The notes below the pieces were generated by a model. The model searched no databases and was not told the DNA's origin. It saw only the letters and a program-made list of their open reading frames with translations. From positions 84,743 to 148,742 of the forward strand of contig JAAWGR010000001.1 in the NCBI GenBank assembly GCA_022795445.1: 64,000 nucleotides of DNA, read 5' to 3'. A program made the translations under genes and the position numbers. Position 1 is the stretch's first letter, and every line of letters starts with the position of its first letter. The stretch comes from Oscillibacter sp. (lineage in GTDB: Bacteria; Bacillota; Clostridia; Oscillospirales; Oscillospiraceae). Shown one piece after another: positions 23,732 through 64,000 of the stretch.

Positions 23732-23991
23732 CGCGCCGCCGACAGCAAAAGAAGCGCCGAACCAACAGCGGCCCCCGCACCAGCGATAGCGGAAGGAGAG
23801 GCACGCCAAATCAGCATGGACTTCTCGTGTCCTACCGATAGGCGCCATAGGATTCCACCGGGCTGAGAACGCCCCCGCGGGGCGTCTTTTTCTCTTTTGG
23901 ACCGTGAACGGCCCGTTTTCTCTTTTTCTTCGCCAAGAAAAAGAGAAAATGGGGGGTTCAAACCTCCCAGCTGTGGGAATGGCTGAAAACA
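23732..23991 (+). repeat. Interspersed multi-hairpin repeat element, copy 1
   Basis: Shares GATTCCACCGG...GGGCGTCTTTTTCTCTTTTGGACCGT..ACGGCCCGTTTTCTCTTTTTC.TCGCCAAGAAAAAGAGAAAATGGGGGG...GGGAATGGC.GAAAACA with copy 2, and CAGCGGCCCCCGCA..GGAAGGAGAGGCA.GCCAAATCAGCATGGACTTCTCGT with copy 3. Confidence 0.95.
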
Positions 23992-27444: not shown

Positions 27445-27717
27445 ATGGCTCGATACGATAAAAAATACCAAACGGATTATTTTCAAATGATGTACATTGT
27501 GACAACAAGCGGGATTGTGTCGGCATTGAAATCTTTGGAAGAAGGCAATTTGGAGAAGATGGCAGAGACTCTTGAAACGATATTAAAACTTGAAAATATC
27601 TTGGTAGAGGAATGGGAAGAAGAGGTGAAAAAGGAGGAGAAAAAGGAGGGGAAAAAGCCAGAAAAAGGGGAAGAAAACAACCTGTGCCGCGGCAGCGACA
27701 GCGGAGATAGACGCTGA
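27445..27717 (+). CDS. Hypothetical protein, Lys/Glu-rich C-term; 3' end runs into repeat copy 2
   Basis: ORF with GAGGTGAG RBS: MARYDKKYQTDYFQMMYIVTTSGIVSALKSLEEGNLEKM... Confidence 0.55.
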   Translation: MARYDKKYQTDYFQMMYIVTTSGIVSALKSLEEGNLEKMAETLETILKLENILVEEWEEEVKKEEKKEGKKPEKGEENNLCRGSDSGDRR

Positions 27718-27905
27718 AGCAAATCAGTGTGGTCTTCTTCGCTTTCAATGGCAGGTACTGTAAGATTCCACCGGACTTGAGACGCCCCGCAGGGCGTCTT
27801 TTTCTCTTTTGGACCGTCCACGGCCCGTTTTCTCTTTTTCATCGCCAAGAAAAAGAGAAAATGGGGGGTGGAACCCCCCTCCCAGCCATGGGAATGGCGG
27901 AAAAC
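27681..27905 (+). repeat. Interspersed multi-hairpin repeat element, copy 2
   Basis: Near-identical core to copy 1 (GATTCCACCGG through GGGAATGGCGGAAAACA); diverged 5' part still alignable (AAATCAGTGTGGTCTTCT vs AAATCAGCATGGACTTCT). Confidence 0.95.
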
Positions 27906-63689: not shown

Positions 63690-63862
63690 CGATTCCGCAC
63701 CAGCGGCACCAGCGGCAGCGGAAGGAGCACCCAGCTCCCAGCGGCCCCCGCAGCAGCGGCAGCAGAAGAAGTACCCAGCTCCCAGCGGCCCCCGCACCAG
63801 CGACAGCAGAAGCAGCACCCAGCCCCCAGCGGCCCCCGCAGCAGCGGCAGCGGAAGGAGAGG
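63690..63862 (+). repeat. 44-bp tandem repeat array forming the 5' part of interspersed element copy 3
   Basis: CCCAGCTCCCAGCGGCCCCCGCAGCAGCGGCAGCAGAAGAAGTA-type units starting at 63730, 63774 and 63818 (period 44). Confidence 0.85.
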
Positions 63863-64000
63863 CATGCCAAATCAGCATGGACTTCTCGTATGCAGAAGTA
63901 GGCACAGAAGGATTCCACCGGGCCCAAAAATCCCCCGCGGGGCGTCTTTTTCTCTTTTGGACCGTGAACGGCCCGTTTTCTCTTTTTCTTCGCGAAGAAA
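63690..64000 (+). repeat. Interspersed multi-hairpin repeat element, copy 3 (truncated by window end)
   Basis: GGAAGGAGAGGCATGCCAAATCAGCATGGACTTCTCGT and GGATTCCACCGGG...GGGGCGTCTTTTTCTCTTTTGGACCGTGAACGGCCCGTTTTCTCTTTTTCTTCGC match copy 1. Confidence 0.95.

Follow-up and report, generated by a model that had tools for sequence, protein, structure and literature searches.

A predicted intrastrand triple helix with three covarying tracts in a mobile-like intergenic repeat of Oscillibacter and its relatives

The 64,000-nucleotide stretch of Oscillibacter DNA analysed here (the window) carries three copies of an intergenic repeat in which two pyrimidine tracts (Y1 and Y2) and one purine tract (R) of a single strand covary in the manner predicted for pyrimidine-motif base triples (T.A-T and C.G-C). 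Our main reading, with a probability of roughly 0.6, is that the window holds three halves of a non-autonomous, mobile-like intergenic family that has a selected triple-helix fold and is mobilised in trans. The structural part of this reading, that selection has acted for a triple helix, is judged very probable from comparison of sequences, and the interpretation of the repeat as a mobile element is considered probable.

Copies of the repeat in the window

Copies 1, 2 and 3 lie at 23732-23991, 27681-27905 and 63690-64000, every one on the + strand; their positions had been given by an earlier, sequence-only reading of the window, and BLAST inside the window agrees, with pairwise E values of 1e-29 to 1e-64. 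Copy 3 is truncated because the contig itself (C136 of the window's own draft genome, G000) ends inside it, at window position 64000 (contig position 148742). The ordered hairpins described in the earlier reading were recovered by RNA folding (z = -5.07 for copy 1 and -4.58 for copy 2), and terminator scoring bore out its description of hairpin 1 as terminator-like, in copy 1 both for the hairpin and for the hairpin with Y1. It had also proposed a fourth hairpin in which pairing is kept despite sequence change; the preserved pairing stands, with GAAC and CCAC, which lie between Y1 and Y2, as better-supported partners for GTTC and GTGG. Copy 1 runs in the order hairpin 1, TCTTTTTCTCTTTT (Y1), GGACCGTGAACGGCCCG, TTTTCTCTTTTTCTT (Y2), CGCC, AAGAAAAAGAGAAAA (R), TGGGGGGTTC; the parts of the three copies, with the basis for each, are as follows.

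23732..23868, + strand: copy 1 5' arm (CAGCGGCCCCCGC..., AAATC..GTGTGG..CTTCTCGT...), homologous to the arms of other A and B halves (BLAST against copies 2 and 3 and genome copies)
23869..23885, + strand: copy 1 hairpin 1 (ACGCCCC-CGC-GGGGCGT), terminator-like (terminator scoring, RNA fold)
23885..23898, + strand: copy 1 Y1 tract TCTTTTTCTCTTTT, predicted Hoogsteen third strand (14 parallel triplets, covariation; unpaired in the secondary-structure fold)
23899..23915, + strand: copy 1 linker and lower stem 5' strand (GGACCGT-GAAC-gg-CCCG), with a small hairpin GGACCG/CGGCCC as an alternative
23916..23930, + strand: copy 1 Y2, Watson-Crick pyrimidine strand TTTTCTCTTTTTCTT (palindrome pattern, triplet scan)
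23935..23949, + strand: copy 1 purine strand R, AAGAAAAAGAGAAAA, predicted to lie at the centre of the triple helix (triplet scan)
23950..23959, + strand: copy 1 lower stem 3' strand TGGG-gg-GTTC (stem covariation)
23968..23985, + strand: copy 1 hairpin 5 (CAGCTGT-GGGA-ATGGCTG), element end (homology with the relative G021 picks up again at 23986)
27681..27780, + strand: copy 2 5' arm, overlapping the end of a 90-aa ORF at 27445-27717 (BLAST)
27781..27798, + strand: copy 2 hairpin 1 (GACGCCC..GGGCGTC) (RNA fold)
27797..27810, + strand: copy 2 Y1 tract, predicted Hoogsteen third strand (triplet scan)
27811..27827, + strand: copy 2 linker and lower stem 5' strand, CCAC replacing GAAC (allele comparison)
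27828..27861, + strand: copy 2 Y2-loop-R hairpin (palindrome pattern, triplet scan)
27862..27871, + strand: copy 2 lower stem 3' strand TGGGGGGTGG, GTGG compensating CCAC (allele comparison)
63690..64000, + strand: copy 3, with an expanded 5' arm (CAGCGGCCCCCGC repeats), broken off inside R by the contig end (Y1 63945-63958, Y2 63976-63990)

A scan for full triplex candidates returned exactly two in the window, copies 1 and 2, and none in shuffled windows. The 90-aa ORF before copy 2 ends within the element, is not called by the codon model, has no Pfam match and is missing at the corresponding site in G021.

Covariation of Y1, Y2 and R

Y1, the T-rich tract after hairpin 1, is Y2 reversed and is therefore the parallel complement of R. 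Intrastrand triplex repeats are defined by complementary Y and R tracts and a third tract mirroring the Watson-Crick partner, all on one strand, and all three were found here; judged by its sequence, this layout is the recipe for a predicted pyrimidine-motif (class IV) intrastrand triple helix, an arrangement defined by Holder et al. (2015, PMC4666352).

Covariation was scored in 222 copies representing 49 distinct alleles, picked by the middle segment and the Y2:R hairpin with Y1 ignored. The ten triplet columns of the 49 alleles contain 93 C.G, 370 T.A and 4 C.A cells and no T.G; TTA or CCG occupies columns 3, 4 and 7 in 49/49 alleles, column 6 in 48/49 and column 5 in 47/49. When the letters of Y1 were redealt within columns in 5000 trials, the triplet score averaged 342.6 and never exceeded 366, compared with 463 observed, figures that are not strict probabilities because the copies are related by descent. 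Parallel register 0 is unique, at 87% versus 41-61% at other parallel shifts and 77% at the best antiparallel shift, and a minimum-change tree of 17 R alleles has 17 site changes, 12 of them matched exactly by Y1. The triplet that best reads a T-A inversion in the pyrimidine motif is G.T-A, and in one allele (five copies) an inversion in R is answered by G in Y1, which yields G.T-A, whereas mirror symmetry alone would predict A. A triplex test on another alignment (A2) was set aside as circular because its rows had been picked for at least 8 triplets; only its lower-stem counts were used. One half (L059:62-261) retains a single tract, the linker having been lost through recombination of Y1 with Y2.

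The covariation of three strands points to a selected shape, predicted to be a Y2:R hairpin whose major groove holds Y1, aligned parallel to R, with a lower stem beneath that covaries as well. Lower-stem alleles in the genus are GAAC/GTTC, GCAC/GTGC, CCAC/GTGG and GCGC/GCGC, and the column pairs 22-77, 23-76 and 24-75 each show 9-12 double changes. The suggestion of the sequence-only reading that selection acts on nucleic-acid structure is strongly supported by this three-strand and lower-stem covariation, and the significant covariation for which it had asked is strong. It is very improbable that the mirror symmetry of the tracts stems from low complexity, or from antiparallel pairing of Y1 with R in an attenuator-like switch, to the exclusion of a triple helix. 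Partial mirror symmetry in several tracts would let single alleles form 9-11 antiparallel pairs, and the 77% of the best fixed antiparallel shift favours such pairing, but the antiparallel register must jump among alleles whereas a single parallel register suits all, and neither the permutation nor the shuffle controls, with no candidates in shuffled windows, reproduce the pattern. The antiparallel switch was rejected on the inconstancy of its register across alleles.

Copy number and taxonomic range

The copies, which the sequence-only reading had asked to be sought in the whole genome and in related Clostridia, occur genome-wide and genus-wide. Within G000 (3.24 Mb, 151 contigs), copy 2 as query matched at least 40 strong places, a pattern for the 34-nt palindrome matched about 46 (reversed control 0), and the A and B types together comprise about 68 distinct copies; these counts are lower bounds, and a copy split over two contigs may count twice. 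Many contig ends of G000, including that of C136, fall inside the repeat; thus the element itself probably breaks the draft assembly, and short-read assemblies miscount it.

The covariance model found the element in 45 of 61 genomes of the genus, often with more than 50 matches each, and within the family in 15 of 201 genomes, representing 13 of 106 genera; a second covariance model produced candidates in 26 of 396 genomes across the order, from several families. Relatives positive in the pattern scan were Oscillibacter, 'Ca. Oscillibacter' species and one Dysosmobacter MAG. A search of Rfam, which the earlier reading had proposed, matched the window to no described family at gathering level, and an E-value search gave weak below-threshold hits alone. 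Neither a plasmid search nor a phage search matched the element, and for want of any match in either, a plasmid or phage origin was rejected.

Other genera keep 8-14 perfect triplets with unrelated tracts, such as CTCTTCTTCTCCTC / CTCCTCTTCTTCTC / GAGAAGAAGAGGAG, and the lower stem of genome G137 is CCAGGACC/GGTCCTGG or CCAAAACC/GGGTTTGG. A compact form is present in about 22 copies in G458, which belongs to another family of the order, with five lower-stem alleles and three tract alleles, each of the latter with 14/14 triplets. About 31 hairpins of the order-wide loci have 8-14 parallel triplets, and shuffled upstream sequence reaches at least 8 in <1% of trials. The spacing between Y1 and Y2 is 17 nt in the genus, 14 in G137 and about 5 nt in the compact form. 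Some compact copies (L392, L393, L391, L398) lie in tandem on a single strand, spaced about 150 bp, and every one of them has its own internally matched tract allele; two compact copies of G458 (L401, L402) are broken at the hairpin apex and run on into a common sequence, GAAAAAAGTGAGACCCGAAAAATGCAAGCCGAAGGC..., as though a further element inserted at the loop or joined it.

The inverted pair as a mobile-like unit

Halves of near pairs in G000, those within about 0.7 kb of each other, always stand in (-,+) order and face outward; G137 has about 18 such pairs and few singles, and pair members often differ in tract allele. Since copies lying near one another invariably form inverted pairs that face outward, the unit looks like a non-autonomous mobile element. 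In the main reading the complete unit comprises two different halves, inverted, outward-facing and usually 190-610 bp apart. Each half follows, in its own sequence, one architecture: hairpin 1, then Y1, a short linker, the lower stem, Y2, the loop, R, the other strand of the lower stem and further hairpins. The outer hairpin modules differ among copies, which makes the exact ends of the element uncertain. A second hairpin module (GCTCCGCGCCGCGAGGCGCG...CATTGCTGGGAAGCAATG) lies 3' of R in some copies (L003, L022, L067 and others) and is absent from others, like an add-on, and a strong intrinsic terminator-like hairpin is located mid-unit in G137 (L333:801-831).

Longer pair interiors (L112, L150, L191, L216) contain small ORFs encoding DUF6809, XRE-type HTH, ribbon-helix-helix (RHH) and unnamed proteins, possibly cargo. 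Neither a transposase nor an autonomous version was found in these interiors, which gave XRE-type HTH, RHH and DUF6809 only, and an autonomous copy with a transposase inside the pair was rejected since the interiors hold small ORFs only. Among 98 proteins encoded next to elements, the 25 commonest of 145 Pfam families are housekeeping or unknown, with no transposase, and the absence of an adjacent transposase remarked upon in the sequence-only reading held, the neighbours being ordinary genes. Y1_Tnp/RAYT (PF01797) had no match in G000 (92.9% complete) and matched the control genomes; RAYT/REPIN was rejected as mobiliser on the lack of Y1_Tnp in G000.

In the closest relative, G021, the site upstream of pyrH is without the copy 2 element, and in front of rarA, the MgsA-type gene that follows copy 1, homology begins at 23986, exactly past copy 1. 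Both sites fit insertion or loss; the genes further upstream differ too, and these are not clean empty sites. The comparison with G021 placed one 3' border; sites that are cleanly empty and show a target duplication were not found.

As a mobile element, the repeat would form its triple helix on a single strand, be it the lagging strand, a transcription bubble or a transposition intermediate; a trans-acting enzyme may then recognise the folded end, and the pair would spread through intergenic DNA in the manner of a REPIN or MITE. Of the three options offered by the sequence-only reading, a non-autonomous REP/MITE-like element is the best supported, by high copy number, intergenic position, inverted pairs, patchy distribution among close relatives and the lack of an adjacent transposase, and an sRNA or 3'-processing role is not supported; the triple helix, the unit of inverted pairs and the order-wide spread had escaped that reading.

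Comparison with known systems

BoxC, PIT and TMECO of E. coli and its relatives were reportedly characterized as intrastrand-triplex repeats by Hoyne (2000) and by Hoyne and Maher (2002). They are the nearest known kind of element; in E. coli they are intergenic, multi-copy repeats of two types, with inverted A+B pairs (Holder et al. 2015, PMC4666352), and in vivo footprinting of the E. coli motif found no stable triplex (PMC4666352), a point against our main reading. The present element shares with them its multi-copy intergenic occurrence, a single strand bearing Y, R and a mirror tract, types A and B in inverted pairs, the lack of a known mobiliser and the lack of association with a gene class. 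Whereas TMECO has a G/C-rich, nearly invariant 9-nt purine-motif sequence with loops of 3-6 nt, the tracts described here are T/A-rich, 9-14 nt long, very diverse and covarying on three strands; Y1 and Y2 are 5-17 nt apart, a lower stem and flanking hairpins are present, and the pair forms a unit of 0.5-0.7 kb. The BoxC/TMECO consensus, CCCTCNCCC N3-6 GGGNGAGGG N3 GGGNGAGGG, was not found, there being no such G/C-rich tract among the copies listed. A 17-nt loop exceeds the limits of published searches (1-6 for ITxF, 0-10 for Hoyne), which the compact form would pass and which are not a physical definition.

REPINs and BIMEs (RAYT) likewise have an inverted pair as the replicating unit, as do all near pairs here in (-,+) order, and they too have palindromic ends, intergenic location, many copies and singles; but G000 is without a Y1_Tnp gene, and the halves are about 250 bp with a triplex architecture, in contrast to REPs of 20-40 bp with GTAG/CGTC tags. 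MITEs and structured repeats such as bcr1, known from the Bacillus cereus group, are similarly non-autonomous, intergenic, folded and patchy among strains. The present family has inverted halves; no pattern of terminal inverted repeats with target duplication came to light, no matching transposase or autonomous partner was found in interiors or neighbours, and the sequences of its paired halves differ, fold being kept rather than sequence. MALAT1 and ENE share the strand order of Hoogsteen tract, stem, Watson-Crick tract and purine tract, whereas the present element is bacterial and multi-copy, may act as DNA or RNA, has a longer triplet run and carries R internally rather than as a 3' tail. 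In the literature searched, in which subscription papers were partly outside reach, neither this repeat nor any bacterial triple helix that covaries was found described.

Strand, molecule and a possible role at transcript ends

Wobble counts on the + strand of the outer hairpins (A.C 127, G.T 67) lean to the - strand, and the closing pair of the lower stem, G.T (G.U) or A-U, leans to the + strand; choosing a strand by wobble counts was rejected on this conflict. Overall, the + strand is indicated by the G.T-A triplet and by the G.T closing pair, and the - strand or DNA by the wobble excess of the other hairpins and by the gene association that the compact form shows. Both halves of a pair would be accommodated by single-stranded DNA because each strand then has one class IV and one class II fold; given the mirror symmetry, a purine-motif triplex could form on the other strand as well.

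MALAT1/ENE structures have the topology U-rich 1, stem, U-rich 2, A-rich, and the strand order of the element matches it. A structured RNA of this type, in which the + strand folds as hairpin 1, Y1, linker, Y2 and R and a U.A-U / C+.G-C helix shields the transcript end from exonucleases, is unlikely. The minimum-energy fold of copy 1 leaves precisely Y1 unpaired, the closing pair is G.U or A-U, and triplexes of the pyrimidine motif, unlike those of the purine motif, do form in RNA (PMC4666352), an RNA triplex being therefore expected on the + strand. However, pair halves lie on opposite strands and one transcript cannot fold both, wobble in the other hairpins favours the opposite strand, the compact form has no consistent upstream gene on the + strand, and no promoter was found within the L059 unit.

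The main alternative is that this fold serves at transcript ends, because outside the family the compact form lies directly after stop codons, usually 4-60 bp off: the 3'-side gene is directed towards the element in 23/23 copies of G458, where tandem copies share neighbours, and in 23/28 of the order-wide compact set, a few loci of which are those of G458 again. The motif could then serve the gene with the adjoining stop codon as a 3'-end or insulator element; as the purine-rich RNA is made, a DNA or RNA-DNA triplex on the mirror tracts would block or end transcription one way. On this view a pair would represent two such ends set between convergent genes, with the high-copy form of Oscillibacter arising by later expansion. 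Such a device, taken together with its triplex block, is possible and rather doubtful. A convergent gene pair with a motif after each stop (L390), the terminator-like score of hairpin 1 with Y1, and wobble counts leaning to the sense strand of the 3'-side gene all agree with it, but a preference in insertion target could yield the same orientation bias, and the analogous PIT/TMECO of E. coli have no promoter or terminator activity (PMC4666352). Nor do Oscillibacter elements follow a gene-end rule: they are intergenic with little preference for neighbour or orientation, single halves in tandem gene contexts being on the strand of the genes in 23 cases versus 7. The sequence-only reading had placed each copy after the 3' end of a + strand ORF, which is correct for the three in the window and does not hold genome-wide; a 3'-UTR rule for all copies was rejected.

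Implications

The reading as a trans-mobilised family with a selected fold may extend to an order-wide class in which a preserved triple helix is a working part at gene ends and has been captured as the inverted ends of mobile units, a proposal we put forward tentatively, at slightly less than even odds. If true, this would be the first such triple helix in bacterial repeats to be backed by comparative sequence, and an enzyme or a transcription mechanism would presumably read it. Three strands changing together over copies and species are rare evolutionary evidence for a preserved triple helix. The PIT/BoxC work left open what part, if any, intrastrand triplexes play in bacteria, as those motifs show hardly any variation and gave a negative result in footprinting in vivo; the dozens of matched natural alleles of the present element make the question testable by swapping one, two or three tracts, and provide a ready covariation benchmark for triple helices. 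The element also points to a mobiliser or a transcription-end mechanism in abundant gut bacteria.
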